Position numbers and translations under genes: made by a program
In this document: in pieces, positions 20,453 through 51,920 of the stretch
Position numbering within the stretch: position 1 is the stretch's first letter
Layout: every line of letters begins with the position of its first letter
Notes under the pieces: generated by a model
Seen by the model: the letters and a program-made list of their open reading frames with translations, nothing else
Databases searched by the model: none
Told to the model about the DNA's origin: nothing
Assembly: GCF_007279655.1 (NCBI RefSeq)
Contig: NZ_QKWN01000001.1
Coordinates: 558,001 to 622,000, forward strand
Length of the DNA stretch: 64,000 nt
Source: Robertkochia solimangrovi
GTDB lineage: Bacteria > Bacteroidota > Bacteroidia > Flavobacteriales > Flavobacteriaceae
Direction of reading: 5' to 3'

Positions 20453-21250
20453 ATGAAGCACATTCTGGTTCCCATTGGCACATCAAAAAATTCTGTGAAC
20501 ACACTGCAATATGCTGTAGATCTAGCCAGTAAGTTCGGTTCAGATATCTATGTAATGCAGGCATTCACGTTGATCTCAAAGGCTGGTTCCATGGCCAGTA
20601 TCGAGCAAAAAGTGGTGGAGACCAGTCACCGGCAACTGGAAGAGGTGATTGCGGGGGTAGACCGAAAGGGTGTGAAGATTAAGGTTGCTACGTATAACGG
20701 GAGTCCGGTAGATGGCGTTAAAGCGATCGATAAGGAATTCGGAATCGACCTGATCGTGCTGGAACCGAAGAGTAATGATATCCGGGAGGAGGTATTTCTC
20801 GGAAGTACTTCGGGCAGCATCGTCAAGAGAACCAACATTCCGGCACTTATCGTACCGGAAGGGAATACATTTAAAAATTATAAGTCGGCATTGGTAGCCT
20901 TCAAGTCTGGAATCGTGCGAAACAAAACCTTATTGAATCCGTTAAGAGATATGAAGGAGATGTTCGGACTGACCTTGAACTTATTGTTGGTGAAGACACC
21001 GAACTATTCTCAAAATGACCTGAGGGTAGATCCGGCATTGATGGACCTGAGTTCAAATATACAGATCACGGAGAACACGACCACGTTTGAGGGGGTATTG
21101 GAACACTTCCAGCAGCACAATCCGGAAATTTTGGTAGTCTTCAGAAGAAAACGCGGATTTTTTGCGAAACTTTGGGAAAAAAATATAATTTTGAAGCGCG
21201 AATTCAGATGTTCGATACCACTATTGGTTTTAAGCGTTAAGAAGTACTGA
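20453..21250 (+). CDS. Universal stress protein, tandem domain
   Basis: 265 residues containing two Usp-like halves. The first (1-145) starts KHILVPIGTSKNSVNTLQYA and has the nucleotide-binding pattern LGSTSGSIVKRTNIPALIVP. The second (about 150-265) is more diverged and lacks that loop. Cytosolic; Usp proteins bind ATP or AMP and act in stress survival, but no target can be read from the sequence. It is divergent from the GNAT gene. The tRNA-Ala gene begins 16 bases after the stop. Confidence 0.88.
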   Translation: MKHILVPIGTSKNSVNTLQYAVDLASKFGSDIYVMQAFTLISKAGSMASIEQKVVETSHRQLEEVIAGVDRKGVKIKVATYNGSPVDGVKAIDKEFGIDLIVLEPKSNDIREEVFLGSTSGSIVKRTNIPALIVPEGNTFKNYKSALVAFKSGIVRNKTLLNPLRDMKEMFGLTLNLLLVKTPNYSQNDLRVDPALMDLSSNIQITENTTTFEGVLEHFQQHNPEILVVFRRKRGFFAKLWEKNIILKREFRCSIPLLVLSVKKY

Positions 21251-21266
21251 TGACCGCGGTCATTTT

Positions 21267-21340
<74 letters not shown>

Positions 21341-21363
21341 CGAATAGGATACCAAAACAAACC

Positions 21364-21402
21364 AAAATCCCGCAAACCTCCAGTATTTACGGGATTTTTA
21401 TT
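21364..21402 (+). terminator. Terminator just inside the island, after tRNA-Ala
   Basis: AAAATCCCG (21364-21372) pairs with CGGGATTTT (21390-21398), followed by a T-rich stretch. It replaces the tRNA's displaced terminator at 29014. A second hairpin (AAAAAGGG/CCCTTTTT, 21439-21466) with a T/A tail follows. Confidence 0.65.
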
Positions 21403-21410
21403 TTTTAGGA

Positions 21411-21440
21411 TATCAAATAATACCAAATAATATCAAATAA
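21411..21440. repeat. Three 10-bp tandem units near attL, possible integrase arm sites
   Basis: TATCAAATAA, TACCAAATAA and TATCAAATAA in direct succession; related text (ATACCAAAACAAACCAAAA) lies at 21349-21367. Short direct repeats inside the att site next to the recombinase gene are the usual arrangement of arm-type binding sites. Confidence 0.5.
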
Positions 21441-21592
21441 AAAGGGGCATATTCGGTACCCTTTTTATTTTCTTAAAAATCGCCCACTCGAAATGCGAAA
21501 ACCCCTGATTTTATTGGCTCTCACAGAAATCCTTTAACATTTGTTAACGCTGATTTTTATATTTTTAAGGGGCACATAAAGGGTGCAATTCT

Positions 21593-21947
21593 ATGAGTAA
21601 TGTTATATCAGTAATATTTTACATTAAAAGAGCCCGGATAAATTCCAAGGGGCTGTGTCTGGTTATATGTAGAATTACCTATGACGGGAGACGATCTGAA
21701 TTCAGTACTGGAAAGTATGTGGAGCCTGATAAATGGAACCCCAACGACAGAACAAGTCAACATTACCGACCAAGTCACCTACCAAGTTGAAGCCATGTCT
21801 ATAAGTATAAACTCAAGAGAATTCAATAGGGCAGCGTTTGTTGTAAGCGAACAAAAAATTTTATGTATACCACTTAGAAACTCTAAAATTAATAAAAGAG
21901 AAATGGAGGAATGCGTTAGGTTATATATATTTGCTGTAAGACATTAA
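21593..21947 (+). pseudogene. Broken tyrosine recombinase (integrase) gene
   Basis: From the ATG at 21593, the first 45 residues read like the arm-binding N-terminus of Bacteroidota site-specific recombinases: ISVIFYIKRARINSKGLCLV, then ITYDGRRSEFSTG and VEPDKWN. The frame then meets a stop at 21790. A +1 shift continues openly from 21681 to 21947 (EAMSISINSREFNRA) but soon loses resemblance, and no catalytic R-H-R-Y domain is present before mcrB. The full gene is about 400 codons, so over two thirds is missing. Confidence 0.7.
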
Positions 21948-22066
21948 GACTCCCCTACCCAAATCTACAAAAATTAGCTACAGAAAACTGTTCTCCAACA
22001 GGCTGAGGCTTTGTCTGAATTTTGGAATAGTTCAATTTGTAGATATTATTAAAAATTATTTTCAAA

Positions 22067-24637
22067 ATGCATAATAATTCAAATGTTCTTGAACAGTTTT
22101 TAGAAAAGTGGCCCTTGGAGAAATTGCCGGATATGACACTCGAAGAGTATACAAATCTCGATAAAAACTCTTTTTGTTATTGGGTAGAAGCTGAAACCGA
22201 AGATCTGGGAAGTATTTGGGGAGGTTCTTCTTATAAATTTGGGATTTATAAACGACAAGGCTCAAAAAATGATAGTAGAAGGGGTTATTTAACAGATGGG
22301 GAATATTCATGGGTAGGAAAATATGGTCAGAATAGTAAGGATGCTTTTAACACTATAAAACATTACATTATTCAAATTGCAGAATTTGCTACGCAGGGAT
22401 CCATTAAAGAAATTGATACCATAGATTTAGGAGATGCCTTTAAATGGAAGATTGCATTTTTATATTCCAATGAGCAGATCATACCTATCTATAAAAAGGA
22501 AGCACTTATACGAGAAGCCGAAAGAAATGGACTCTCAACCGATGCATCACTTGGGGAATTACATACCGCATTAATCACTCAGAAAGGATATAACGAATCT
22601 ATTTACGACTATTCAAATAGAATATGGAATACGTATGCCAGGGAAAATGATTTAAACTCTCAATATCCGGAAAACAATAAAACACAACGGAAATATTGGT
22701 TATACTCTCCAGGTCGAAAGGCCAGGTTTTGGGATAAGTATTACAATGATGGTATTATGGGGTTGGGATGGAATGAATTGGGAGATCTTAGAAGGTATAA
22801 TTCCAAGGAAGATATTGTTTCCAAACTACAGGAGCTGCAGCAAACGGATAGTTCTAAAAAAAATGATGCGGCGGCAAATTTTGATTTCTTAAAAAATATG
22901 TCTGTTGGAGATGTTGTTATTGCAAAGAAAGGCCGAAAAGAATACTTAGGATATGGGTACGTTACTTCAGACTATTATTATGATGAAACTTCAAAAGATC
23001 ATAAATCGTTAAGAAAAGTAAATTGGATAAAAAAGGGAATTTGGACCGAAGAAAATACAGATATTATTGTAAAAACCTTAACTGATTATACACGGTATCC
23101 TGAAACTATCGACAGAATTAAAAGCATCATCGGAATAGAAGATGATAAACATGTGAAAATTAAGATCCCCAGAATGAATAAATCTCCTTTAAATTCAATT
23201 TTGTATGGCCCTCCAGGCACAGGTAAGACCTACAATACTATCAATAAGACATTAGAACTTTTCGATGAAGATTTAACCGGACTAAGTCGGGCGGATATAA
23301 AAGCGAAATTCGAAGAAAAGATATCCCAAAACAGGATCGTCTTCACAACCTTTCATCAAAGTATGACCTATGAAGATTTTGTAGAAGGCATAAAACCTGT
23401 GGAGCCACAAAAGGAAGGAGATCCGGTTATATATAAAATTGAACAAGGAATCTTTCAAAAACTATGTGTTGAAGCTACATTTTCATTAGCCAAGGAAAAT
23501 GAGTCAGTTACCACTGAGAAAGTCTTGGACTTTTCTCTAGCTTTCGACGAATTTGTTGCTACGATTCAGGATAGACTATCTACTAATGAGGAAGTGGAAC
23601 TGGAAACTAAAAACGGAGGGAAGGTAATTGTTGATGGAATCTCCCAACAAGATAACATCCTTATCAAACATCCCGGAAAAGATAATACTTATCCCGTATC
23701 CAAACAGCGATTGTCTAAAATACATGCTGCATTCCCTGACCTGAATGAAATAAATAATATTGATCAGCAATTCCGGTCAGTAATTGGTGGAAGTAATTCA
23801 ACTGCAAACTGGGCGGTTCTGAACGCTATACGAAATAGTAATGCGATTAATAATAATAAAAAAACGGATCAGGAATATAAATGGGAAGATAAAATTGAAG
23901 TCGTTAATTCGTTAAAAAAGGTCGACTTTAAAGGAAAAAACGGGGAACCTTTTGTAATAATCATTGACGAAATAAACCGTGGGAATGTCTCCCAAATCTT
24001 TGGAGAATTGATCACCCTTATAGAAGAAGATAAACGTTTGGGTAATCCTGAAGCTATTCAAGTACAGCTTCCCTACAGTAAAGAAATGTTCGGTGTTCCT
24101 CCCAATGTATATATAATTGGAACCATGAATACGGCAGATCGAAGCGTTGAAGCCTTAGACACTGCCTTAAGAAGAAGATTCAGTTTTATTGAAATGCCAC
24201 CCATTCCGGATTTAATTAGAATCGAAGGAAAGGTTCCTAACGGAATCATCCCTGATCACAATATTGATCTTACGACACTTTTAGAAACGATCAACAATCG
24301 TATAGAAAAGCTGTTAGATAAAGATCATATGATCGGACATAGCTATTTTCTAACCGTAAATAATCTGGAAAGCTTAAAATTGGCATTCCAAAACAAGATT
24401 CTTCCCTTACTTCAAGAATACTTTTTTGGAGATTATGGTAAAATTGGTTTGGTAATAGGATCCGGATTCTTCGACATCCGAAATGAGCAAGATGAAGAGA
24501 ACATATTTGCTCATTTCGATGATTACGATGTAAGTATGTTAAATTCAAGAAAAGTGTATAGACTTAAAAATATCATTCAAATGAGCGATCAAAATTTTGT
24601 TGAGGCTTTGAATCTATTACAAGGGAAAGATATTTAA
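22067..24637 (+). CDS. mcrB: McrB-type 5-methylcytosine restriction GTPase with EVE-like reader domain
   Basis: 856 residues. Residues 1-160 form an unassigned N-terminal domain (DLGSIWGGSSYKFGIYK). Residues about 209-345 look like an EVE/PUA-type modified-base reader (KYWLYSPGRKARFWDKYY; MSVGDVVIAKKG). From about 370 there is an AAA+ GTPase: Walker A GPPGTGKT (381-388), Walker B FVIIIDEINRGN (629-640) and the McrB-specific MNTADRS (from 687), then the Arg-rich LRRRFSF. McrB reads modified cytosine in DNA and powers translocation; cleavage needs McrC, encoded next with no gap. It is the main defence cargo of the island. Confidence 0.93.
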   Translation: MHNNSNVLEQFLEKWPLEKLPDMTLEEYTNLDKNSFCYWVEAETEDLGSIWGGSSYKFGIYKRQGSKNDSRRGYLTDGEYSWVGKYGQNSKDAFNTIKHYIIQIAEFATQGSIKEIDTIDLGDAFKWKIAFLYSNEQIIPIYKKEALIREAERNGLSTDASLGELHTALITQKGYNESIYDYSNRIWNTYARENDLNSQYPENNKTQRKYWLYSPGRKARFWDKYYNDGIMGLGWNELGDLRRYNSKEDIVSKLQELQQTDSSKKNDAAANFDFLKNMSVGDVVIAKKGRKEYLGYGYVTSDYYYDETSKDHKSLRKVNWIKKGIWTEENTDIIVKTLTDYTRYPETIDRIKSIIGIEDDKHVKIKIPRMNKSPLNSILYGPPGTGKTYNTINKTLELFDEDLTGLSRADIKAKFEEKISQNRIVFTTFHQSMTYEDFVEGIKPVEPQKEGDPVIYKIEQGIFQKLCVEATFSLAKENESVTTEKVLDFSLAFDEFVATIQDRLSTNEEVELETKNGGKVIVDGISQQDNILIKHPGKDNTYPVSKQRLSKIHAAFPDLNEINNIDQQFRSVIGGSNSTANWAVLNAIRNSNAINNNKKTDQEYKWEDKIEVVNSLKKVDFKGKNGEPFVIIIDEINRGNVSQIFGELITLIEEDKRLGNPEAIQVQLPYSKEMFGVPPNVYIIGTMNTADRSVEALDTALRRRFSFIEMPPIPDLIRIEGKVPNGIIPDHNIDLTTLLETINNRIEKLLDKDHMIGHSYFLTVNNLESLKLAFQNKILPLLQEYFFGDYGKIGLVIGSGFFDIRNEQDEENIFAHFDDYDVSMLNSRKVYRLKNIIQMSDQNFVEALNLLQGKDI

Positions 24638-25912
24638 TTGAAACAGAACCCGGAACATATTACCGTTTTTGAGCATGAGACTTTGCGAATTGACCGCGGT
24701 GATCAACGTCTCACAAAAGTACAGTTAGAGGCTTTACAATTGTTCTATGGCGAAAATGGAGTCCCCTACTATTCACTAATCCACCATGGTGTCCGCTTCA
24801 ATGAATATGTTGGTGTAATTCAATTAGGTAATTTAGTCATTGAAGTCCTTCCAAAAGCGGATAAGTCGAATCCGAACGATGAGAGGGTTAAATTTTCCTG
24901 GAGAAATGTGCTGATTTCCATGCTCCATGCTGTGGGAATCTTAGATATACACGCCCCTAGCAACAGTAATTTAAACTTACGGCAAAATTCTATCCTAGAT
25001 CTCTACTTTGAACTCTACATTCGTGAAGTAGAATATTTACAACATCGTGGACTCATAAAAAAGTACCGAAAAACGGAAGGAAATAGAAACGCATTAAAGG
25101 GAAGTATTCAATTTGCAAAACACTTAAACCAAAACCTGGTTCGTCAAGAACGGTTTTATGTAAAACACTCTACCTACGATAAGGAGCATGTTATTCACGC
25201 TATTCTTTTTAAAGCTTTGAAGTTATTGAGCTACATCAATACCAATATACATCTGAAAAGTAGATTAGGAGCATCATTATTGAACTTTCCGGAGCAGAAT
25301 GATATCAAAATAACTGAATCGGTTTTTGATAGAATAGCATTTGATCGTAAAGCAGAACCGTACAGAAATGCATTGGAAATTGCAAAGCTACTTCTTCTAA
25401 ATTACCATCCGGATGTAAACCGGGGCACCAACAATGTATTGGCATTGATGTTCGATATGAACATGCTGTGGGAGCAATTTGTTTTTATAAGCTTACGAAA
25501 GCATAAGGCAAGTACCACCAGTATTGCTGCTCAAAACACCAGGAATTTTTGGAAACCTCTATTAGGATACCATAGTAAAATGAAGCCCGATATTGTTATT
25601 AATAAAGATTCCGACAATTGCATTGTTTTAGATACAAAATGGAAAAATTTAAGCGGATATAATCCTTCTCCGGAAGACCTCAGGCAGATGTTTGTTTACC
25701 TAAAGTATTATAAAGCAAAGCGGGTTGCTCTATTATATCCCGGAACAGAGAATACTTCAAATTCAGGTTTTTACTATGACCATAATAGAATTAAATCAAA
25801 TGAATTAGGGGAGGAAGAGTGTGCTGTAATTTCTATCGGAGTTGATGTGTGTATTAAGAAATGGCAGTTAAGGATTTTTGAGAGTATTGAAAATTGGTGT
25901 CAAATTTTATAA
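24638..25912 (+). CDS. mcrC: McrC-type restriction endonuclease subunit
   Basis: 424 residues starting with a TTG that directly abuts the mcrB TAA; no ATG is near, so translation is probably coupled. The N-terminal part (LVIEVLPKADKS, then an insertion through the GTPase-ring contact region) matches McrC. The C-terminal PD-(D/E)xK nuclease has D318 (MKPDIVI), D332 and K334 (VLDTKW). It binds the McrB hexamer, stimulates GTP hydrolysis and cuts DNA between modified sites. Confidence 0.93.
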   Translation: MKQNPEHITVFEHETLRIDRGDQRLTKVQLEALQLFYGENGVPYYSLIHHGVRFNEYVGVIQLGNLVIEVLPKADKSNPNDERVKFSWRNVLISMLHAVGILDIHAPSNSNLNLRQNSILDLYFELYIREVEYLQHRGLIKKYRKTEGNRNALKGSIQFAKHLNQNLVRQERFYVKHSTYDKEHVIHAILFKALKLLSYINTNIHLKSRLGASLLNFPEQNDIKITESVFDRIAFDRKAEPYRNALEIAKLLLLNYHPDVNRGTNNVLALMFDMNMLWEQFVFISLRKHKASTTSIAAQNTRNFWKPLLGYHSKMKPDIVINKDSDNCIVLDTKWKNLSGYNPSPEDLRQMFVYLKYYKAKRVALLYPGTENTSNSGFYYDHNRIKSNELGEEECAVISIGVDVCIKKWQLRIFESIENWCQIL

Positions 25913-26106
25913 AATAAGGTATATCCCACTTAATTGAGGAATTTCAGACCTTGTTATATTAATTCAGTTTTGGGTTGATTTTTTACTGCTCATAGACTTA
26001 ACATTTATATCAATATATGTAATAAAGGCTGTTTGCTTTGCTTTGTATTTATTAAATCACAGCTAAATAAACGCACTGAAAATCAATAATATACATTATA
26101 GTTTAG

Positions 26107-26114
26107 TATTTTTG
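26107..26114 (+). promoter_or_regulatory. -7 element of the island lipoprotein gene
   Basis: TATTTTTG (TAnnTTTG), 55 bases before the ATG at 26169. This indicates that the lipoprotein has its own transcription start, separate from mcrBC. Confidence 0.5.
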
Positions 26115-26168
26115 TGTTTAAGATTTGTTGACCAACAAATAGAACTTAATTATTTAAATACTTGAAAA

Positions 26169-26966
26169 ATGAAAGGAGTTGAAAAATTTTCAGTTCTTGC
26201 CCTATTTTATGTGTTATTTTTATCATGTCAGGATGAATTACCGAATCCATCTGAAGATCTTTTAGTAGGTACAATTACTTTAGATTTAAAACTTGAGATT
26301 GTTTCCCAAGCATCGCCCTGGTCCACCAAAGCAACAAAGGGAATGGCATATGCTTTGGACTGTTCATTTCCGGATCCACCAACTGTAGTGGTTCCCGAAG
26401 TTTTCAATGTTCAATTTTTTATTCCAGGAGAGAGTGAACCGGCTTATGAGTTTACAGGTTTTGAATCTTTTAGACTGAATACTTTTCAGGTTGTTTTGCG
26501 CGAGTATGAAATTATAATTCAGACCGAACCCGTGGGTTTACCTGAATATACAAGTTCTTCAATGTATTTTTATACGAAGACAACTCATGACTTTAGTAAG
26601 GAAACCTTTTTGGGATTGACAGTAAAACCGTTTCAATCTCTGGTGGTGGTTGCAAAAAATAATCTTGCTGGAGGTCCTACTTTTGATTTATTTGATACCA
26701 ATGGAGATGTTTTAACAGTTGGAGTTTTTAAAGATTTAGAAATGTATGAAGAAGAATATGTTGGTTTATATGTTGGTGACATTAATGGGAGGGTAGGAAG
26801 CATGTTGATTTCATTTACTGATTATGATGGTGTTGACAGAAGGTATACCTTAGAAGACTTAGAACCTGCTGTTATGTATCGGGTGTTGTTCTGTCCCGAT
26901 CCTTCTATGGGGATCTATATTGATAAAGATATTTTCGAAAATGTAGTTGATGTCATTATTGAATAG
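26169..26966 (+). CDS. Island lipoprotein of unknown function
   Basis: 265 residues. The signal ends in a lipobox (VLFLSC, Cys19). The mature part has the feel of the Bacteroidota DUF4493-type surface lipoproteins: GTITLDLKLEI at the start, a Lys-Ala linker (STKATKGMAY), then beta-rich repeats with YEIIIQTEPVGLPEYTSS and a C-terminal sandwich. It is presumably anchored in the outer membrane. The family assignment is tentative. An envelope protein beside a restriction system could be unrelated cargo. Confidence 0.6.
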   Translation: MKGVEKFSVLALFYVLFLSCQDELPNPSEDLLVGTITLDLKLEIVSQASPWSTKATKGMAYALDCSFPDPPTVVVPEVFNVQFFIPGESEPAYEFTGFESFRLNTFQVVLREYEIIIQTEPVGLPEYTSSSMYFYTKTTHDFSKETFLGLTVKPFQSLVVVAKNNLAGGPTFDLFDTNGDVLTVGVFKDLEMYEEEYVGLYVGDINGRVGSMLISFTDYDGVDRRYTLEDLEPAVMYRVLFCPDPSMGIYIDKDIFENVVDVIIE

Positions 26967-27072
26967 TATTTATGATATTATATATGAAAATTTTATTGAT
27001 GAAAAAACGGACGAAATCAACCAAAGAACTATTAGTAGATTTACCATAACCAAGTGTATATTATCATAATTA

Positions 27073-27174
27073 ATGTCCACAACCTCAGAGTCGATAACAT
27101 TTGACGGTTCCATGGCTAAACTATTGCCCATTAAAGGGAATACCGAAAAATGTCTTAAAAGGAATTCGATATAA
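27073..27174 (+). other. Possible tiny ORF or relic in the island
   Basis: An ATG-started frame of 33 codons (starts MSTTSESITFDGSMAKLLPI) between the lipoprotein and the minus-strand Cys-motif gene. The composition looks protein-like, but there is no clear ribosome-binding site. It may be the remaining N-terminus of a deleted gene. Not recognised. Confidence 0.25.
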
Positions 27175-27215
27175 TTTCTAAGACCTAATCAGTAGATTAA
27201 TTGATAAATATTATT

Positions 27216-28157
27216 TTAAAACGGGAGGTGATCAGTAGGGTCTTCGATATCATCCGTTAGCATGAGGTCAATGAGATCACTTCTGGTAGCCGAACCGTCG
27301 CAAACGGGACAAGGGTGAAAGTTTAATTTCTCCAGAAGTTCCAAATCCAGGCTTAATTCCGGATTGTAACATAATCGATGATACTGGAAGATCAAATCCG
27401 TAATCGGTTCTAAATAATCGTCTGATTTTCTAAATAAGAAATTACTCAGGTGATTTGGGATTTTATAATCTCGAGCGTAAATTATTTTAATACCTCGTAA
27501 ATCATTTCTACGGCTATTTTCCCAGAATTTGTTGTCATCCGGATATTTATCAATAAATTTTTGACCTTCTTTTACCAGTTTTTTTATTGCTTTATCCACT
27601 TCGGCAATGGACGTAATATTTTCATATGTTGCGTAGGTATACATCGGTTTTACAAATACCTTTAATTTTTGGGTGATTTCCCAGTCATCCTTAAGCAGTC
27701 TCTGAAATTCTTCAGTATTGTTAAAGTAAAGGTCATAATATTCTTTAAACCACAATTTAAACAGCCTGACTTGTCTTCTTTGTTTTATAAGTTTCTGCTC
27801 ACAACTAAGAGTTTTGTTTCTATCGGTAGGATATGAAAATTTTATAGTATCCGGAACACCAATCAGAGGTAATTTGAAATTCAGAATCTCACAATTTTTA
27901 TCGGTATGAAAAAGAAGCTTTTTTTCATCCTCAATTATACACGGAGACTGAAGATCATGCACTTCAGGACTATAATAATATGAATAATAAAAACGGGTGT
28001 TCAATAGCAGATATTTCCATTTTAGACAGTTTTCGATATTATTTTCCTCAAGTATGGGGATATGGTTTTTATAATAGTGAAAGTTTGGATAATTAAAATG
28101 TTTGCGGGAAGAGTATTTAAAAATGAATTTGAAATCAGCTTCCTTTATATAAGGCAT
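27216..28157 (-). CDS. Island protein of unknown function with CPxC motif and SSB-like C-terminal tip
   Basis: 313 residues, soluble, no signal. It is rich in Tyr, Lys, Phe and Asp. The N-terminal half is Tyr/Phe-rich (NTRFYYSYYYSPEV), the middle is helical with KRRQVRLFKLWFKEYYDLYF, and the C-terminus has a zinc-finger-like CPVC (FHPCPVCDG). The last residues DPTDHLPF resemble the acidic Pro-Phe tip of single-stranded-DNA-binding protein. It is encoded opposite to mcrBC. I do not recognise the family. The AT-rich codon use matches the island rather than the core genome. Confidence 0.6.
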   Translation of the reverse strand: MPYIKEADFKFIFKYSSRKHFNYPNFHYYKNHIPILEENNIENCLKWKYLLLNTRFYYSYYYSPEVHDLQSPCIIEDEKKLLFHTDKNCEILNFKLPLIGVPDTIKFSYPTDRNKTLSCEQKLIKQRRQVRLFKLWFKEYYDLYFNNTEEFQRLLKDDWEITQKLKVFVKPMYTYATYENITSIAEVDKAIKKLVKEGQKFIDKYPDDNKFWENSRRNDLRGIKIIYARDYKIPNHLSNFLFRKSDDYLEPITDLIFQYHRLCYNPELSLDLELLEKLNFHPCPVCDGSATRSDLIDLMLTDDIEDPTDHLPF

Positions 28158-28431
28158 TTGGAGTCGGTTTAGGTAAGTATCTGTTCTATCTTGATCTGAA
28201 GTTAAGATATAATAATCAGATCAATTTTTTTTGTCAAAATGGTTGATAAATATAAAATCTGGGAATTAAAACTAAAAAGCGGATTTGTTAAGATCTGTGG
28301 AAGATTATCGAGTTCAATTCCGGGGTTTAAAATATATTGAAAAGTGAGGATTCCCGTAAATATTTAAAAATATTTTTATTTAAATTTATTGGGTTTATTT
28401 TCTGAAACATTAATCTTTAATTGTAAATCTG

Positions 28432-28614
28432 ATGAGTGATAATACACCTGGCAGGAAACTTACTCTTTATGAAAAATCTCAAATTATGAAGACGTTTAAA
28501 CGTTCTCCTGAATTCAGGGCAAAATGGGAACCGATACTAAAAGCTGCCGCTGAGCGGGCAAAGATGATTTCGGAAGAAAATAATCAAATTGACCATGATA
28601 GTAATATCAAATAA
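28432..28614 (+). CDS. Small island protein, 60 residues
   Basis: A charged, probably all-helical protein (RKLTLYEKSQIMKTFKRSP, then KAAAERAKMISEE). No signal or membrane segment. It is followed 26 bases later by the 49-residue ORF on the same strand, and both are close to attR. No homologue recognised; the regular spacing and protein-like composition support a real gene. Confidence 0.5.
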   Translation: MSDNTPGRKLTLYEKSQIMKTFKRSPEFRAKWEPILKAAAERAKMISEENNQIDHDSNIK

Positions 28615-28640
28615 TTTCTTAGAATCCAAATCCAATATAT

Positions 28641-28790
28641 ATGAAAGACGAATTAGTTAAAATTACTGTACCGGATAAGCCAACCATATCACGTTGCATA
28701 GGTATTCCCATTGAAGTTTGCTTAAAACCTCGAATTTTCGATCCTAAAAGTAAGAGTGATAATCAATCCGGAATTGATTTACCATTTTAA
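28641..28790 (+). CDS. Small island protein, 49 residues, ending in SSB-like tip
   Basis: ATG to TAA, 49 codons: MKDELVKITVPDKP at the start and GIDLPF at the very end. The end matches the Asp-hydrophobic-Pro-Phe pattern with which SSB recruits repair proteins, and echoes the DHLPF end of the divergent neighbour at 27216. It is likely a pair with the 60-residue ORF upstream. Function unknown. Confidence 0.4.
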   Translation: MKDELVKITVPDKPTISRCIGIPIEVCLKPRIFDPKSKSDNQSGIDLPF

Positions 28791-28977
28791 AAGATTAAAA
28801 TATTTATGCCTGTCGACTTACTGTTTAAGGTCAGTATTTAATGATTTTTCGGATTTCATTGAAGGGGAAGAGCTGTTTAAACGTTAAAAAATGTTAAAAA
28901 GGGGGCTATGCGGGGGGCTTTGAATTTGGGATCCTTGGGAGGGCCTTTAAAGGCTCAAAAAATCAGATTTTGGATAG

Positions 28978-28992
28978 TCCCATCTTCTCCAC
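28978..28992 (+). repeat. attR
   Basis: TCCCATCTTCTCCAC, identical to the tRNA-Ala 3' end copy at 21327-21341. It is not preceded by tRNA-like sequence, so it is the duplicated half-site. Confidence 0.88.
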
Positions 28993-29013
28993 AACTTACA
29001 GTTAAGAGAGCAA

Positions 29014-29043
29014 AGTGCGGGTATTAAGTCCGCACTTTTTTTA
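29014..29043 (+). terminator. Terminator, probably the original one for tRNA-Ala
   Basis: AGTGCGG (29014-29020) pairs with CCGCACT (29030-29036), followed by seven T. It lies 22 bases past attR, with no gene in between, at the distance expected for the tRNA before the island inserted. Confidence 0.75.
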
Positions 29044-29420
29044 TGCAGTTTTGTGAGCGAAGTGCTCAGTTCAAAGTGCCGTTTGACTTATTAAGTACTA
29101 ACCAACCGCTCTCACACTCGCTCTGTATCCCATTGTACCCATTCCGATCACTTTATAGTTAATTGGTAAAGCCTTTAATTGATCTTTCTGATTAGTTTGG
29201 TTTGAAAAGGGGAATGCATGTTTGAATTTCAGAAACTTATGGTGTATAGGTAAGTATTAGTCTTCAAATGATGATTGTAATTTGTAAATAACAAATTTCA
29301 GAACGTGAAGTTATATCGTAAACGTGAGAGCGCTCAGAAAATATAACTCATTATACATTAGTATAGTGTTAACGGATCGATCGTAATAAAAATCATACTT
29401 TCACTAAAATACACGTTGAC

Positions 29421-29633
29421 ATGAAATCAAGATTTATTTCCTCTATTTTTTTACTAACGATTATTGTTATGGGTAGTTGTGTCCAGGGTGATAACGGACA
29501 ACAATTGGATAATGATGATCAACAGATAGAATTAAATGCATTTGTAGCTCCTGAAACCAATTTGCTTCAAATTTCTACTATTGAAAATGAACCATTAGAA
29601 TTTTCGGATGTTATTATTGGTAAAAGTTTTTGA
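29421..29633 (+). CDS. Small lipoprotein of unknown function
   Basis: 70 residues. A signal peptide with lipobox VMGSC (Cys20) is followed by a short polar, Asn/Asp/Gln-rich mature chain without Cys or repeats. Probably a small envelope lipoprotein. No family recognised. Confidence 0.55.
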   Translation: MKSRFISSIFLLTIIVMGSCVQGDNGQQLDNDDQQIELNAFVAPETNLLQISTIENEPLEFSDVIIGKSF

Positions 29634-29758
29634 TTAACCTTAATTAATTCACATTAAACCTGTTGATTAAATTATTTTTGCTAGTAGTTATCTCAAAATT
29701 CCTTTCGTATCTGTAGACTATTCATTTAAATATAGATTATAACAGGTATAATTAAAAA

Positions 29759-30301
29759 TTAAATCGATGCCTGATACGCCTCAAGGATCCAGGCCTTTAA
29801 TTCCGGGTCGATTTCACTGAGGTCTGTTACCTGTACTCTATGTGTACACATGGTGCCGAACGGACCAGAATTTTCAAGTCTTGCAGTCGTGGGTTTGTCC
29901 TTGAGCTTAAAGCCGAGATCGATCCTGGATTTAGTAGCGGGTTTGATCAACAGGAATTGTCTTTTCCGGATAATACTGACACTTCCTTTTTTAGGTGTTA
30001 TGGTCACATCAGTCCCCAGAGCCTTGACAATTTCTATCAGCTTTTGATAGATCGGTATCAGTGCTTCTTTTCCCTTATATTGTGCCTCCACCAAATCTTC
30101 CGAAGAGTGATCTTCTTCCTTAGAAAGGGTTACGATCATATTGGCGAACCCGTGTGTCACCCCATGTTCCGATTTGAGATAGCTGACACCTTCAGAGTGC
30201 TTTGCAAAGGACTTATTCTTTAGGATCGACTTCCATTCTTCTAAGGATTTGCCGGTCTTTGCTGGCATATTTTCGATCATAGTTTGAAGTGCTTTGTCCA
30301 T
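29759..30301 (-). CDS. DUF4287/DUF5655 domain protein
   Basis: A 180-residue soluble protein. The N-terminal about 60 residues (MPAKTGKSLEEWKSIL ... EGVSYLKSEHGVTHGFANMIV) are the DUF4287 pattern. Residues about 75-175 (GKEALIPIYQKLIEIVKALG... ITPKKGSVSIIRKRQFLLIKP) are DUF5655, whose members resemble nucleic-acid-modification accessory domains. The function is unproven. It is the first of four minus-strand genes to 32123. Confidence 0.8.
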   Translation of the reverse strand: MDKALQTMIENMPAKTGKSLEEWKSILKNKSFAKHSEGVSYLKSEHGVTHGFANMIVTLSKEEDHSSEDLVEAQYKGKEALIPIYQKLIEIVKALGTDVTITPKKGSVSIIRKRQFLLIKPATKSRIDLGFKLKDKPTTARLENSGPFGTMCTHRVQVTDLSEIDPELKAWILEAYQASI

Positions 30302-30345
30302 AATTTTGATTTATAATACAGGTGCAACTGAAGTATATCAACAAT

Positions 30346-30912
30346 TTAATGCTTTAAATTGGTATTGATGCTTTCCTGAATCTTTTTCTTCTCTTTTCTG
30401 GTCAACCATTTTATGATGATTGTGGTGTTTGTAAGAAGCAGATATCCCAGAATTATGTTGAGTCCGGCAATGGTCCAATTAAAATAATCCTGAGTTCGGC
30501 CAAAGAATAGTTCATTCATCAGATTACTACTATCCCTAGAGACCTTACTTTTAAAGGCAAGGAAGCAAAAATGCAGAAATACAGGAGCATAGTCAATGAT
30601 CAGGAATCCCCCAATGAGTATCAGAGCTAATTGGAGTATATTTTCTTTGTTGAAATTTCCTAATTCTATTCGGTTATCGTCAAATCCCTGATCGAGTTTC
30701 AAGGCATTGATGATACGATCAGATTTTTGGATCAGGAATGTAAATATGAGAACAAGGAATATTATAATACCGAATATCCACAATAATGAAACCGGTTTAA
30801 AATCTATAAATATGTATCCCATATTGGCTGGGACAAAGACAAAAGCAGTAAATATTAATGCGTAAAGTCCAAATAGTTTAATAAGGATTCGAAAGAAGTC
30901 TTTTTTTGTCAT
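30346..30912 (-). CDS. Membrane protein of unknown function
   Basis: 188 residues with four hydrophobic stretches (about 10-30, 40-62, 93-115 and 145-165) and a strongly basic C-terminus (KWLTRKEKKKIQESI). Inner-membrane location inferred. No family recognised. 44 bases separate it from the DUF4287 gene on the same strand. Confidence 0.65.
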   Translation of the reverse strand: MTKKDFFRILIKLFGLYALIFTAFVFVPANMGYIFIDFKPVSLLWIFGIIIFLVLIFTFLIQKSDRIINALKLDQGFDDNRIELGNFNKENILQLALILIGGFLIIDYAPVFLHFCFLAFKSKVSRDSSNLMNELFFGRTQDYFNWTIAGLNIILGYLLLTNTTIIIKWLTRKEKKKIQESINTNLKH

Positions 30913-31014
30913 AGGATAGTCTTATAAGTCCGGATAAACTCGAGAGGATTCAAAAAATACAATTTAAGAATGTTATCAATATTATCGTGAATAGTACATA
31001 GCGGGTAACAAATC

Positions 31015-31557
31015 TCAAAATTTTAATTGTTTATGCTGATTATAAGCCTCCAAGACCGTCTTTTCAAGGTCCCTAAAGTTGATCTTTAGGGTCGTGGAAA
31101 TAATAGAAATTGGAGATCCATAGGATTCGTAATTGGTCTTCATCGCTCGTTTGGCAACCATACCCTTTGCGCGTTCTATATATTTCTCGGGTTTATCTGT
31201 TTCCAGGATCAACATTCGGGTCTTGACGATTTCCAGGGTATGTATTTCGGTGATATCTTCCCAGGCTATGAGTCCGACACTCGTGGCATTAGAATTATCC
31301 GTGATCCCTTTTTCATCGATGATAAGTCCTGCATTTTTATCAAAAAGTTTCTTGACAATAAATATCAGACAGAGTCCGAAGAATAAAACAGCGGCAATAC
31401 CTGCAGTTATGATCACAGGCTTTTTCCCCAGAATACCACGCATATAAACTTCGGGATTGAGTATGAAATGGATGCCAAGGCTTACAAATAGGATACAGCC
31501 GAGTATTTGCAGTAAAATTTTGTTCCTGCTCAAGGGGATTACTATTTTATCATTCAT
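31015..31557 (-). CDS. STM3941-like membrane protein
   Basis: 180 residues: two N-terminal membrane helices (LLQILGCILFVSLGIHFIL; ITAGIAAVLFFGLCLIFIV), then a PH-like beta-rich domain (GLIIDEKGITDNSNATSVGLIAWEDI) and a short Tyr-Glu tail. This layout is that of the STM3941 group of unknown function. The ATG overlaps the upstream LRR lipoprotein stop as ATGA, so the two are translationally coupled. Confidence 0.7.
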   Translation of the reverse strand: MNDKIVIPLSRNKILLQILGCILFVSLGIHFILNPEVYMRGILGKKPVIITAGIAAVLFFGLCLIFIVKKLFDKNAGLIIDEKGITDNSNATSVGLIAWEDITEIHTLEIVKTRMLILETDKPEKYIERAKGMVAKRAMKTNYESYGSPISIISTTLKINFRDLEKTVLEAYNQHKQLKF

Positions 31558-32117
31558 GGTGCAATATATTCATTGGGTTTTTCAGGATTGATCGTCAGTT
31601 CGGGGAGTGCCTGCTTCAAGGTAGCCAGGTCTGCTTCCGTTACCGTATTGCCTTCAACGGTCAGAAAACGCAGTTTATTTAACTGCGTTAGTTTATCTAC
31701 TTCTTCCGATAGGATCAATTGGTTTGAGCCGAGATCCAACGACTCCAGATTTGAGAGTTTATCGAAGTCTTCCGGCAGCGTTTTTAAATTCAGTAGCTCC
31801 AGTGCAAGATCTTCCAGTAAAGTCAGTTGTGTGATTTCATCGGGAAGTTCCTGTGTCGGCTGTGATTTCATCCGTTCGATCAATACATGATGAGGCGGAT
31901 AGATCGACCATCCTTTACTGCTTCCTATGGCGCTTATACTGAGTTTTTTAATTTTTTTCAATTGAGTTATTTCCTTCGGCACAGCAGTTAATCCGTATTC
32001 TTCTAAAGAAATAAAAACAGTCTCCTCTTCCGATAGGGAGGCGAATAATGGTTCCTCCCGATCTTTCTCCTGAGTGCAACCAGTCAGCAACCATAAAAAT
32101 AAGATCCATTTTTTCAT
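31554..32117 (-). CDS. Leucine-rich-repeat lipoprotein
   Basis: 187 residues from the ATG at 32117 (a TTG at 32123 is in frame). Signal with lipobox LLTGC (Cys15). The mature chain holds about five LRR turns with the pattern LP.EI..L..L..L.L...L (for instance LPDEITQLTLLEDLALE and KLSNLESLDLGSNQL), a fold usually used for protein binding at the cell surface. Partner unknown. Coupled to the STM3941-like gene by a 4-base overlap. Confidence 0.8.
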   Translation of the reverse strand: MKKWILFLWLLTGCTQEKDREEPLFASLSEEETVFISLEEYGLTAVPKEITQLKKIKKLSISAIGSSKGWSIYPPHHVLIERMKSQPTQELPDEITQLTLLEDLALELLNLKTLPEDFDKLSNLESLDLGSNQLILSEEVDKLTQLNKLRFLTVEGNTVTEADLATLKQALPELTINPEKPNEYIAP

Positions 32118-32216
32118 AGTCAATGTTTTGAGTTAAAATTGAAGGGGGGAGGAAACTTTGCTATAAATGTAATAAAATTCGGATAATGGAAAGTCGGGTA
32201 GAAATTAATTTATCTA

Positions 32217-32280
32217 GGTCTGCTGGCGCACGAAGATGCTCGAGTGACCTGTGGTGAAAGTGTTCTTCGCGGGCTCAGGT
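32217..32280. repeat. Dispersed intergenic repeat, second family, copy 1
   Basis: GGTCTGCTGGCG and GCTGTGGTGAAA/CTGTGGTGAAAGTGTTCTTC are shared with 61518-61645, where an inverted repeat is inserted in the middle. Located between the LRR lipoprotein and DUF808 genes. Confidence 0.55.
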
Positions 32281-32404
32281 TTTTTGGGACTTCGCGAACT
32301 CAGATTTTTATTGGGGTTACAGAAAAACAGGTGATAATTTTTAATTTTTCATTTCGTTTCATGAAAATCGAACTTATCTTGCCGTTAAATTTTTATACGA
32401 TTCT

Positions 32405-33280
32405 ATGGCATCAGGATTTTTTGCGTTACTCGATGATATTGCATCCCTAATGGATGATGTTGCGGTCTTGGGAAAAGTGGCCGGCAAGAAAACCGCCGGA
32501 ATATTGGGTGATGACCTCGCGGTCAATGCAGAAAAAGCCTCCGGATTTATGTCGTCGCGTGAAATACCAGTACTATGGGCGATAACCAAAGGATCTCTTC
32601 TTAATAAATTGATCATTCTGCCTATAGCCTTCCTCCTGAGTGCTTTTGTTCCTGCTGTGATCACATTTATTTTGATATTGGGCGGACTCTATCTTGCGTA
32701 TGAGGGGGCGGAAAAGATCTATGAGTTCTTTGTGCCTCACGCTCATAAGACTGAAAAAATATCCATTAAGGATCTCAGTGAGGAGGCAATTTTGAAACAT
32801 GAAAAAGAAAAAGTGAAAGCTGCGATTGTAACCGATTTTATTCTTTCCATCGAGATTGTTATCATCGCTTTGGGTACGGTGACCGGAGAGCCCTTATTGA
32901 ACCAGATCATTGTGGTTTCTCTTATTGCACTGGTAGCAACGGTTGGGGTATACGGAATCGTGGCACTGATCGTTCGTATGGACGAATTCGGAAAAGCTTT
33001 GATCGATCTGAACGAGGAAACAAATAGCTTTTCTGACAAGGTTGGACGCATATTGGTAAAAGCCCTTCCCAAAGTGATCAAAGCACTTTCAATTATTGGA
33101 ACGATCGCTTTATTATTGGTGTCCGGAGGGATATTCTCACACAATATTCATTTCCTCCACGGACTGTTTGAAAGTATTCCCGCATTCATCGTGGAGTTCA
33201 TGCTCGGACTCGTAATTGGTTTTATAGTGTTTCTTCTAATCAGCCTGGTGAAAAAGCTTTTTAAGAAGAAAGATCACTGA
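32405..33280 (+). CDS. DUF808 family membrane protein (YedI-like)
   Basis: 291 residues. The N-terminal soluble region MASGFFALLDDIASLMDDVA, then KKTAGILGDDLAVNAEKASGF, is the hallmark of DUF808. Around six membrane helices follow, and a basic C-terminus (KKLFKKKDH) ends the chain. It is an inner-membrane protein of unknown function, with E. coli YedI as a relative. No operon partner. Confidence 0.9.
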   Translation: MASGFFALLDDIASLMDDVAVLGKVAGKKTAGILGDDLAVNAEKASGFMSSREIPVLWAITKGSLLNKLIILPIAFLLSAFVPAVITFILILGGLYLAYEGAEKIYEFFVPHAHKTEKISIKDLSEEAILKHEKEKVKAAIVTDFILSIEIVIIALGTVTGEPLLNQIIVVSLIALVATVGVYGIVALIVRMDEFGKALIDLNEETNSFSDKVGRILVKALPKVIKALSIIGTIALLLVSGGIFSHNIHFLHGLFESIPAFIVEFMLGLVIGFIVFLLISLVKKLFKKKDH

Positions 33281-33310
33281 TTATCCGTATTAATAGCACC
33301 ATCACTCGAC

Positions 33311-33361
33311 GTTGCCGCAGTCAGGAGTCCCGTCACCTATCGGGAGCAGGATTGTCACTTT
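33311..33361. repeat. Dispersed intergenic repeat, copy 3 (inverted, diverged)
   Basis: Reverse complement reads AAGTGACAATCCTGCTCC...CGGGAC, resembling the copies at 5450 and 14401. Lies between DUF808 and DUF4256 genes. Confidence 0.45.
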
Positions 33362-33395
33362 ATATTGCGTAAGCAGACTTAATCACTAAAGAATT

Positions 33396-33956
33396 TCAAA
33401 GCTCAAGTCGTCCTCTAAATCCTCTCGCCGCATAGTAAGAATCGGCGCCATTGTGATAGATGAAAACGCGGTTATATCTTCGGTCGCCAAAAACAGCCCC
33501 ACCACGGGATCTGACCGATTCGGGTGTTTCCAGCCAACTCGACGTTTTAAGGTCAAAGGTTTCTAAAGTTTGTAGTTTAAAGTATTGCTTTTCGGTCAAT
33601 ACCTGGATTCCCATTGTAGCGGCCATATCCTGAACACTGTTCTGAGGTTTATGAGCCTTTCGGGATTCCAACGCTTTTCGGTCGTAACAAAGGCTTCGTC
33701 TTCCTGACGGACTCTCCCGGGAACAATCGGTATAGATGTATCGATTCGTTTCTTTTTCATATCCCGTTACATCCGGTTCTCCACCGCTGCTTTCCATTTC
33801 ATTAAGCGACCATAATTTTTCTGGATTTTGAAGTAGTCGAACTTCGATCTCGTTCCATGAAAGTTCCGGGTGCCGGAAGGTATTTTCATAAAACCGTTTT
33901 TCCAGGATATGCAGGAGGTTGGTAGTCTCTTCTTTTGTCAGGGATTTTGATTCCAT
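33396..33956 (-). CDS. DUF4256 domain protein
   Basis: 186 residues, soluble. Family pattern: LLHILEKRFYENTFRHPELSW, GGEPDVTGY, YIYTDCSRESPSGRRSLCYD, then MGIQVLTEKQYFKLQTLETFD and the end RYNRVFIYHNGADSYYAARGFRG. The family covers nearly the whole chain and has no known function. Single gene, convergent with DUF808. Confidence 0.88.
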   Translation of the reverse strand: MESKSLTKEETTNLLHILEKRFYENTFRHPELSWNEIEVRLLQNPEKLWSLNEMESSGGEPDVTGYEKETNRYIYTDCSRESPSGRRSLCYDRKALESRKAHKPQNSVQDMAATMGIQVLTEKQYFKLQTLETFDLKTSSWLETPESVRSRGGAVFGDRRYNRVFIYHNGADSYYAARGFRGRLEL

Positions 33957-34293
33957 CGCAATCGTCTTAGATTTAACGTACTGAGATCAAGATACCCTAA
34001 AAATTGTAGAACTCAGTCAACGGAAAGCAGTTTTCTGTAATCAATGAATACATCAAAAGTTCAAGCTTCCTAATTTAGGTTTGGTCACGGGCTACAGGTT
34101 GCACTCTTAAATGGGGATGCAGTGAAACAGTAAAGCAGTGAAGAAGTGATATAGTAAACAGTTCTCTGTCTTCTGTCTTCTGTTCTCCGTTTTCTGTGAA
34201 AAGTGCAGGTATTTAGTTCTTCTGTCACCACCAGGTAGCCGTACTTCTCCAAATAAGCACGGCTACAGGGTAAGGTAGTTAACTGAAGAAAAT
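33957..34293. other. Gene-free spacer with low-complexity repeat text
   Basis: Contains a run of CAGTGAAACAGTAAAGCAGTGAAG/TTCTGTCTTCTGT type sequence (34121-34200), also found at 36826-36880 and 61717-61790, and an 8-bp inverted repeat (GTAGCCGT/ACGGCTAC, 34235-34266). No gene seen. Confidence 0.55.
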
Positions 34294-36514: not shown

Positions 36515-36886
36515 TCCATTAATGACTCTAAGGTACTTAATAAAATAATGATCATGAAGTTAAAATTCTTCATTTTGGTTCTCCTTTCCAATTCCAATTC
36601 ATTACCCCGACCCTAAAGGGTGGGATTGGAGGTTTTGAAAAGGGAAAAAGTCTTTCCCTCGGCTCCCTTTAGGGCTGGGGTCAAGCGAGGGGAAAGGGCG
36701 ATGTGATTTGTATTTTCCAATTCCAATTCATTACCCCGACCCAAAAGGGTGGAATTGGATAATTTTAGAAGGGTGCAATGTTTGCCTCGGCTTCCTTTAG
36801 AGCTTGAGCCAAGTAAGAGAAGCAGGGAAGTAGGAAGACAGAAAAGCAGTAAACGGAGAACAGTCTACTGCTTTTCTGTTCACGGT
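36515..36886. other. Gene-free spacer with two REP-like elements
   Basis: Two diverged copies of an about 110-bp unit start at 36585 and 36714 (offset 129). Each begins TTTCCAATTCCAATTCATT and carries an inverted repeat. Low-complexity CAGTAAAC text follows at 36826-36880. No coding sequence. Confidence 0.75.
36585..36815. repeat. REP-like inverted-repeat element, two tandem copies
   Basis: Copy 1 has arms CCCCGACCCTAAAGGG (36605-36620) and CCCTTTAGGGCTGGGG (36665-36680), complementary at 14 of 16 positions. Copy 2 (from 36714) has the left arm CCCCGACCCAAAAGGG (36734-36749) and a decayed right arm. The 29-base start of each copy is identical. Confidence 0.8.
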
Positions 36887-51206: not shown

Positions 51207-51920
51207 ATGACAGATCAAAATAAGGTGGCCTATATTACAGGAGGCACCAAAGGAATTGGATATGGAGTAGCAAAAGTACTCCTGGAGGCAGGTTATAATG
51301 TAGCGATCAGTGGTAGGGATAAAACCACGGCCGAAAAAGCTGCATTGGATCTGAATAATGACGCTGACAGGGTTCTGGGTCTTGGATCAGATGTTACAAA
51401 CCTCAAAGATGAGGAGGCTGCGGTGGCATCGATTTTGGCAAAATGGGGAAGGCTTGATGTTGTGCTGGCAAATGCCGGACTAGGACATTTTGCTCCGGTT
51501 GATCAATTGGAACCTGAAAAATGGCATCAGATGATCGATACGAACCTCAATGGAGTTTTCCATACGCTGAAAGCATCAGTGGATGCGTTGAAAGATTCTA
51601 AAGGGTACTATATCACACTTGCCAGTCTTGCTGGAACGAATTTTTTTCCAACAGCATCAGGTTATAATGCCACCAAGTTTGGGGTTGTCGGGTTTACACA
51701 AGCTGCAATGCTCGATCTTCGTCAGTACGACATCAAAGTGAGTACAATCATGCCCGGATCGGTGGCTTCGCATTTTAATGATCATACACCTTCTGATGAT
51801 GATGCCTGGAAGATTCAGCCTGAAGATATCGGGGAATTGGTTCTGGACTTGCTCAACATGCATCCTCGAACACTGCCCAGCAAGATAGAAGTTCGGCCTA
51901 CGCGACCAGATAAAAAATAG
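51207..51920 (+). CDS. Short-chain dehydrogenase/reductase (SDR)
   Basis: 237 residues. NAD(P)-binding TGGTKGIGYGVA at the N-terminus, NAG in ANAGLGHF, the catalytic Ser/Tyr/Lys in ASLAG and YNATK. Classical SDR; substrate unknown. The C-terminal MHPRTLPSKIEVRPT is typical of the clade related to 3-oxoacyl-ACP-reductase-like and broad-range SDRs. It converges on the alpha/beta hydrolase gene. Confidence 0.92.
   Translation: MTDQNKVAYITGGTKGIGYGVAKVLLEAGYNVAISGRDKTTAEKAALDLNNDADRVLGLGSDVTNLKDEEAAVASILAKWGRLDVVLANAGLGHFAPVDQLEPEKWHQMIDTNLNGVFHTLKASVDALKDSKGYYITLASLAGTNFFPTASGYNATKFGVVGFTQAAMLDLRQYDIKVSTIMPGSVASHFNDHTPSDDDAWKIQPEDIGELVLDLLNMHPRTLPSKIEVRPTRPDKK

Follow-up and report, generated by a model that had tools for sequence, protein, structure and literature searches.

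What lies behind the tRNA-Ala(GGC) gene of Robertkochia solimangrovi, and how did it come to be there? We address this question in a stretch of 64,000 nucleotides of the genome (assembly GCF_007279655.1, contig NZ_QKWN01000001.1, positions 558,001 to 622,000), referred to here as the window, in which this transfer RNA (tRNA) gene is the sole one detected by ARAGORN. A sequence-only reading of the window had noticed that the last 14 bases of the tRNA gene plus one recur 7.65 kb downstream, and had taken the DNA in between for a genomic island carrying a recombinase remnant, mcrBC and unrecognised genes. Here we show that the identification of 21342-28992 as a tRNA-Ala genomic island, with the two repeats as its ends, is supported: an integrase remnant and terminators agree with it, as do arm-like motifs whose spacing is typical of the family and the guanine plus cytosine (GC) content at third codon positions (GC3). 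The segment is very probably what is left of an element with a tyrosine integrase that inserted by recombination at the 3' end of the tRNA gene, and is best read as a Flavobacteriaceae element of the tRNA-targeting kind, now an immobile remnant that carries McrBC as cargo. What began as an observation of two repeats thereby becomes an island boundary well tested by several lines of evidence. The features concerned are collected in Table 1.

The repeated 15-mer, TCCCATCTTCTCCAC, occurs in two exact plus-strand copies, 21327-21341 and 28978-28992, and since Rfam places the tRNA end at 21340 it does consist of 14 tRNA bases and one more. At up to two mismatches it has two matches in the window against 0.19 expected, a number reached by 1 of 100 shuffles. 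At up to one mismatch, the genome searched (4,407,270 bp in 23 contigs) holds the same two places only, with no match for the reversed control pattern; no third copy was seen at either threshold. The genome as published comprises 23 contigs, 4,407,290 bp and 40.72% G+C (PMC9690682). The distal copy lies outside all open reading frames (ORFs) of at least 80 aa, and the 20 largest of 58 direct-repeat families in 21200-52000 were short or chance-like except one local pair. The island had been called delimited to the base; its ends are indeed recognised, but only to within the 15-bp repeat.

The recombinase remnant proved to be the beginning of a tyrosine integrase, retaining about 50 of some 405 codons. 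Its homologs (E ≤1e-6) were found in 106 of 397 family genomes searched, that of R. solimangrovi among them. The closest is the integrase of the relative G144, a 405-aa ORF with Arm, SAM-like and catalytic domains, which is 62% identical over 52 residues (64% over residues 1-50 in a second alignment). The last 20 bases of tRNA-Ala(GGC) are identical in G144 and the window, and the integrase match starts 251 nt past the tRNA end in the former and 252 nt in the latter (21341 to 21593). Among the best 29 homolog loci, a same-strand tRNA lies upstream within 500 nt in 25 and within 1000 nt in 27, with none in the other two; the tRNAs are those for Ala, Met, Pro, Asn, Ser, Arg, Leu and Asp. When the G144 and G209 integrases were aligned to 21342-29760, only their first ~50 residues matched, another piece reaching no better than E 0.74. 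With its integrase truncated, the island has lost the ability to excise by means of its own enzyme. As a separate observation, the genus genome G002 has equal-score matches to the remnant on four contigs (C61, C71, C63 and C64), one of which also has an mcrB-like gene, probably reflecting a repeated mobile element.

Nine further homologous loci were extended (G330, G211, G209, G287, G247, G283, G113, G179 and G379). In five of them (G209, G287, G247, G179 and G379), 17-32 nt of the locus's own tRNA tail are repeated at a distance of 18.7-30.7 kb, and by eye a terminator-like hairpin stands right behind the repeat in four of the five, the G247 sequence ending too early to judge. The tRNA target is Ala in G144, Ser in G287 and G247, Met in G209, G379 and G313, and Asn in G179. 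In G313, an integrase of the same kind begins 175 nt past tRNA-Met, and a second tRNA-Met copy lies 23.8 kb away, both copies being near-complete with an identity of 60 nt. The element between them contains McrBC, with McrB and McrC 47% and 41% identical to those of the island, so that McrBC is cargo of such tRNA elements elsewhere too. The tRNA-Met and tRNA-Asn elements (G209, G179, G379 and G313) share homologous genes for an AAA_24 ATPase, a DUF3871 protein (Pfam names taken from the G209 copies) and a small protein of 114-132 aa. No link of the AAA_24 and DUF3871 genes to G287 or G247 was found, and these core genes are therefore not universal among the elements.

Resemblance to these elements extends to both ends of the island. 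The 450 bp from the tRNA start in G144 match window 21353-21712 at 71% identity over 361 bp (E 4e-46), the terminator following the tRNA included; the same query also matches 28896-28916 (20/21 bases, E 2.5e-4) and the distal 15-mer (E 0.011), its further matches being weaker and chance-like. Each end carries a motif, searched loosely as AAAGG-N5/6-ATTCGG. Tyrosine integrases of this type use arm-type sites, and we regard the motifs of the island as arm-type-like, with putative integrase binding. The left motif ends 115 nt past the tRNA end in the window, G287 and G247, 116 nt in G144, and 152 nt in G209 and G179; no left-side motif was found at up to two mismatches in G379 and G313. From the end of the right motif to the end of the tRNA tail the distance is 79 nt in the window, G287, G247 and G379 (at two mismatches in G379) and 80 nt in G209 and G179, so that a spacing of 79-80 nt holds in five of the six related elements with a known far end. 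The pair of spacings in the window, 115 and 79 nt, is that of G287 and G247. With 6 of 63,983 plus-strand positions fitting the motif at up to one mismatch, a chance fit at one given spacing amounts to about 1 in 10,000.

The hairpin behind the tRNA gene in the window is weaker than, and different from, the one within 28993-29045, which is succeeded by a T run. Its counterpart in G144 folds at -13.8 kcal/mol, and the hairpins directly behind tRNA-Ala in Joostella atrarenae and G025 fold at -15.9 and -21.5 kcal/mol, respectively. These folds are consistent with a far-end terminator that was the host's own and has been displaced, and with a near-end terminator that came with the element.

Base composition also distinguishes the segment. 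Its GC content of 0.340 is equalled or undercut by two of 60 partly overlapping stretches of island length, drawn from 20 sampled 20-kb pieces of the same genome. The AT-rich block described in the sequence-only reading has a sharp edge on the left, but its right-hand break is blurred, as raw GC remains between 0.34 and 0.37 up to ~31 kb (0.311 in non-coding 28993-29758, 0.339 in the gene at 30349). GC3 is 0.25-0.35 in the four larger island genes and 0.483 in the first gene past the distal repeat, which places the break in coding sequence at that repeat. Ranked against 229 ORFs of the same genome, GC3 falls at percentile 3.5 for mcrB, 10.9 for mcrC, 1.3 for the 265-aa ORF and 7.0 for the 313-aa ORF; past the repeat, the first three genes stand at 93.0 (DUF5655), 25.8 and 74.2.

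The mcrBC assignment made earlier is borne out by the domain matches in Table 1. Both reading frames are open, and the operon is apparently intact; it most likely encodes a predicted modification-dependent (type IV) restriction system against incoming DNA. Scores against the NCBIfam equivalogs stay under the cut-off (118.6 bits against 637 for McrB, 78.6 bits against 338 for McrC). Ahead of its AAA+ domain, McrB has an N-terminal part (22067-23040) with a region resembling PADLOC PD-T4-1 (residues 9-202, E 4.8e-28) and another resembling PDC-S02 (residues 210-325, E 4.5e-15). McrB matches at E ≤1e-30 occur in 45 of the 397 family genomes, R. solimangrovi included. No tRNA lies in the 19-20 kb around each of the closest four relatives (G251, G156, G011 and G107), and of ten regions with McrB relatives as first taken, one had a tRNA (tRNA-Ser, L181); the tRNA-Met of G313 emerged on extension.

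The genes called unrecognised are the 265-aa and 313-aa ORFs and two small ones, and they have indeed no credible Pfam match. The orphan genes are without counterpart in the five related two-ended elements. For the 313-aa ORF, no homolog was found in the other 396 family genomes or in plasmids, phages and viral contigs, a sub-threshold NCBIfam match (E 0.017) was not used, and a single-sequence structure prediction was uninformative (mean predicted local distance difference test score, pLDDT, 32.8). A Pfam scan of the seven island ORFs revealed no relaxase, conjugation or phage structural genes.

Table 1. Features of the tRNA-Ala(GGC) locus in window coordinates
Feature	Position	Strand	Evidence or remark
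Usp-family gene	20453..21250	+	PF00582 E 4.5e-20; usual left neighbour of the tRNA in Flavobacteriaceae
tRNA-Ala(GGC), very probable integration target	21267..21341	+	ARAGORN; Rfam tRNA 62.3 bits
Proximal core repeat (tRNA-side attachment-site copy)	21327..21341	+	Exact 15-mer
Stretch with terminator-like hairpin behind the tRNA	21342..21400	+	Homologous to G144 counterpart; -9.6 kcal/mol, z -2.0
Left arm-type-like motif AAAGG-N5-ATTCGG	21441..21456	+	0 mismatches; ends 115 nt past tRNA end
Truncated tyrosine integrase, 62-codon open stretch	21593..21778	+	PF17293 Arm-DNA-bind_5 E 9.5e-10; catalytic part gone
mcrB-like gene, 856 aa	22067..24637	+	AAA_5 E 3.1e-16; GPPGTGKT, DEINR, MNTADRS
mcrC-like gene, 424 aa	24638..25912	+	TTG start; PF10117 E 2.2e-54; PD...D-T-K pattern
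265-aa ORF	26169..26966	+	Lipoprotein-like N-terminus (by eye); no credible Pfam, NCBIfam or PADLOC match
313-aa orphan ORF	27216..28157	-	No credible Pfam match
60-aa ORF	28432..28614	+	No Pfam, PADLOC or NCBIfam match
49-aa ORF	28641..28790	+	No Pfam, PADLOC or NCBIfam match
Right arm-type-like motif	28898..28913	+	1 mismatch; ends 79 nt before distal-repeat end
Distal core repeat, presumed displaced 3' end of the original tRNA gene	28978..28992	+	Exact 15-mer
Terminator-like hairpin, probably the original tRNA terminator	29007..29042	+	Fold of 28993-29045: -13.5 kcal/mol, z -2.7
SDR gene, right neighbour of tRNA-Ala in two relatives	51207..51920	+	168 bp off in Joostella atrarenae, 112 bp in G025

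Tyrosine integrases that target tRNA genes, as outlined in the Islander account, use a phage attachment site (attP) carrying the tRNA 3' end, so that the tRNA gene stays whole and its old 3' end is displaced (PMC4383910). By this route, integration would have given the tRNA gene of R. solimangrovi the element's copy of the 3' end (21327-21341) together with the element's terminator, while the 3' end and terminator that the host gene originally had would have come to lie at 28978-29042. Later, the integrase gene, which adjoins the tRNA as in relatives, would have been truncated after ~50 codons, with arm-type-like motifs retained at both ends. We infer the direction of this exchange and the order of the decay from the arrangement described above. 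The outcome would be a fixed locus, likely useful to the cell for restricting modified foreign DNA, a defence activity likewise inferred.

Several observations weigh against such an origin. The sequence-only reading predicted an empty site in which tRNA-Ala joins the flank at 28993, and this was seen in no relative examined; in Joostella and G025 the tRNA reads instead into the homolog of 51207. The island contains no complete integrase ORF and no trace of AAA_24 or DUF3871. A check of GC and codon use, also proposed there, came out divided: GC and GC3 set the island apart, but a codon-likelihood score did not mark its genes as foreign (percentiles 27-99), and it is not used as support. Among the extended loci, the tail repeat was not found in G330, G211, G283 and G113, with the G283 and G113 sequences stopping at contig ends, and no distal tail repeat of at least 12 nt was found in the 55 kb past tRNA-Ala in G144. 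G313, which has a near-complete tRNA as its far copy, departs from the right spacing with 147 nt, and G379 fits it only at two mismatches. The motif was drawn up post hoc, after inspection of sequences including the window. It is also common, with eight matches (seven sites) at up to one mismatch in the 64 kb against 3.8 in 20 Markov shuffles; its presence by itself was accordingly rejected as evidence, and only its spacing is used.

How far the variable DNA extends can be judged from relatives, many of which have the order Usp, tRNA-Ala, variable gap, SDR, hydrolase and others, the last part corresponding to the window from 51207 onwards. The gap between tRNA and SDR measures 112 bp in G025, 168 bp in Joostella atrarenae, ~2.2 kb in G002, 5.4 kb in G034, 8.2 kb in G003, 9.8 kb in G001 and 29.9 kb in the window; in G004, ~9.8 kb follow the tRNA before a homolog of window 48774. 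As the tRNA reads into SDR in Joostella and G025, which belong to two other genera, the DNA from 28993 to ~47-51 kb is absent there too, and the island lies inside a longer variable interval. In the 32 regions taken from relatives (21 with tRNA-Ala(GGC)), no match to the DNA of 28993-29758 was found, nor any relative (E ≤1e-4) of the ORFs of at least 100 aa in 21.3-47.4 kb beyond three exceptions: DUF5655 (three regions without the tRNA), a Usp paralog at 34826 matching Usp genes, and a weak cyclase match (29%, without the tRNA). Four other genus genomes, ~66-69% identical in matched DNA, have different sequence after tRNA-Ala, and the DNA of 28960-33980 and 33900-48500 matches them only in pieces located elsewhere, with the gene at 47.4-48.5 kb as the exception: in G001-G003 it lies close to the tRNA. 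Two pieces of the tRNA-SDR DNA of G001 were found elsewhere in the R. solimangrovi genome, which points to rearrangement of the interval. The genes of 29.7-47.4 kb look like the product of a separate, older history of a hotspot, the ~22 kb to the right of the island (28993-51206) being a hotspot or a rearranged segment.

That interval gives rise to a different explanation, namely that the locus is a composite of serial insertions at tRNA-Ala, in which the true island would run from 21342 to ~47-51 kb and 28978 would be an internal junction of a tandem array. The 29.9 kb between tRNA and SDR, against 112-168 bp in G025 and Joostella, would suit it, as would the lack, in the 32 regions, of any relative beside tRNA-Ala(GGC) for the ORFs of at least 100 aa in 29.7-47.4 kb, the Usp paralog excepted. 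The site has moreover been re-used: other genes succeed tRNA-Ala in members of the genus, and tail repeats of the locus's own tRNA occur at 2 of 12 tRNA-Ala loci of relatives, in G030 (19 nt at +142 and 12 nt at +1513) and G036 (14 nt at +7011), the lengths of downstream DNA differing among the 12. Relatives with both repeats around other sequence had been named beforehand as evidence against the island and do exist in these two loci, but because their repeats carry their own tRNA sequence they point to a re-used site and not to an argument against the island here. The composite is nevertheless unlikely in our judgement, since the window lacks a third tail copy at up to two mismatches, none of the 25 main ORFs in 29.7-50.8 kb was recognised as an integrase in a Pfam scan, GC and GC3 are mostly host-like there, and several of these ORFs have homologs elsewhere in genus chromosomes.

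It is quite possible, if still short of probable, that the island does not represent one acquisition, and that an older, larger element either gained mcrBC or the right-hand orphan genes or underwent deletions that left them behind. The five related two-ended elements measure 18.7-30.7 kb, the integrase is mostly gone, and the orphan genes lack counterparts in those five elements. On the other side stand the low GC3 across all four larger genes, the McrBC cargo of G313 and the preservation of both ends. The earlier statement that everything inside was shown to have been acquired as a unit is accordingly too strong: with the integrase mostly lost, other pieces could have been lost or gained as well. 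By contrast, we regard it as extremely improbable that the repeat is a coincidence and that local variation of an ordinary sort accounts for the AT-rich block. Two of the 60 sampled stretches are as AT-rich, but the 15-mer occurs in just two places of 4.41 Mb, the integrase remnant occupies the typical place, and the motif spacing is matched at both ends.

An immobile tRNA-targeting element, as preferred here, is of a kind already well known, and the specimen is decayed; only the fixed-spacing end signature may be new. Islander tRNA islands likewise have a whole tRNA gene, a displaced 3' fragment in the same orientation downstream and the island in between, and their length limits of 2-200 kb accommodate the 7.65 kb found here, just as the position of the distal copy agrees with the rule that the fragment must lie outside conserved protein domains; however, an integrase ORF is required there (PMC4383910), whereas this island has an N-terminal remnant only and would probably be missed by that filter. 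The 10K island of Riemerella anatipestifer at tRNA-Arg, whose integration and excision were demonstrated experimentally, shares a flavobacterial host, small size, a tRNA-adjacent integrase and direct repeats, but has a 53-bp repeat and a working integrase, and its main text does not mention McrBC (PMC6764341). Also comparable are the Flavobacteriaceae tRNA elements, with an Arm-DNA-bind_5-type integrase starting ~200-300 nt past the tRNA, a far-end tRNA copy or tail repeat (all but G144) and an arm-like motif 79-80 nt inside it (five elements); unlike them, the island is 7.65 kb long instead of 18.7-30.7 kb, has a truncated integrase and lacks AAA_24 and DUF3871.

The McrBC system of E. coli K-12 consists of an AAA+ McrB with the MNTADRS motif followed by a PD-D-x-K McrC. 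The island's proteins follow the same plan, with the difference that McrB is longer, with a PD-T4-1-like and PDC-S02-like N-terminal part, and that both proteins score below the NCBIfam equivalog cut-offs. No description of this island was found in the open-licence literature searched, and the main text of the R. solimangrovi paper does not contain the terms 'genomic island', 'McrBC', 'integrase' or 'restriction' (PMC9690682).

We propose tentatively, and with more doubt than conviction, that the island is the relic of a class of tRNA-targeting elements, apparently without a name so far, that occurs throughout the Flavobacteriaceae. Its members would have a common integrase lineage and fixed ends: at one end the tRNA tail, a terminator and, 115 or 152 nt inwards, a motif; at the other a motif 79-80 nt ahead of the tail. 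Subgroups would have re-targeted to different tRNAs and swapped cargo. Such elements may be satellites. If this is true, the end signature finds dead islands to within the repeat after the integrase has decayed, and the 79-80 nt motif-to-tail rule could locate decayed defence islands that have no integrase and are probably missed by finders that depend on one. The stretch behind tRNA-Ala(GGC) itself stands out as a repeatedly changed site in Flavobacteriaceae.

Some minor observations concern the surroundings. In G036, tRNA-Ala lies ~12.8 kb from Usp, on the opposite strand and ~0.1 kb from SDR, possibly by an inversion at the same site. An AstE/AspA-type gene (47439-48437) stands to the left of a TM2-M48 cluster here and between SDR and hydrolase in G001-G003, a local rearrangement. 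The intergenic DUF1398/Bax1-I stretch at 36585-36773 holds two 60-nt direct copies, 88% alike, with starts 129 bp apart. Two dispersed short repeats, at 32204-32316 and 33292-33378, flank a DUF808 gene (32405-33280); other copies lie at no fewer than 16 and 5 places in the genome, respectively, with 40 of 68 candidates scored, and just three further copies were seen when the window and 400 kb sampled from the same genome were examined. At three places (C7, C20 and C14) the two repeat types adjoin on opposite strands, like a unit of the repetitive extragenic palindrome/bacterial interspersed mosaic element (REP/BIME) type.

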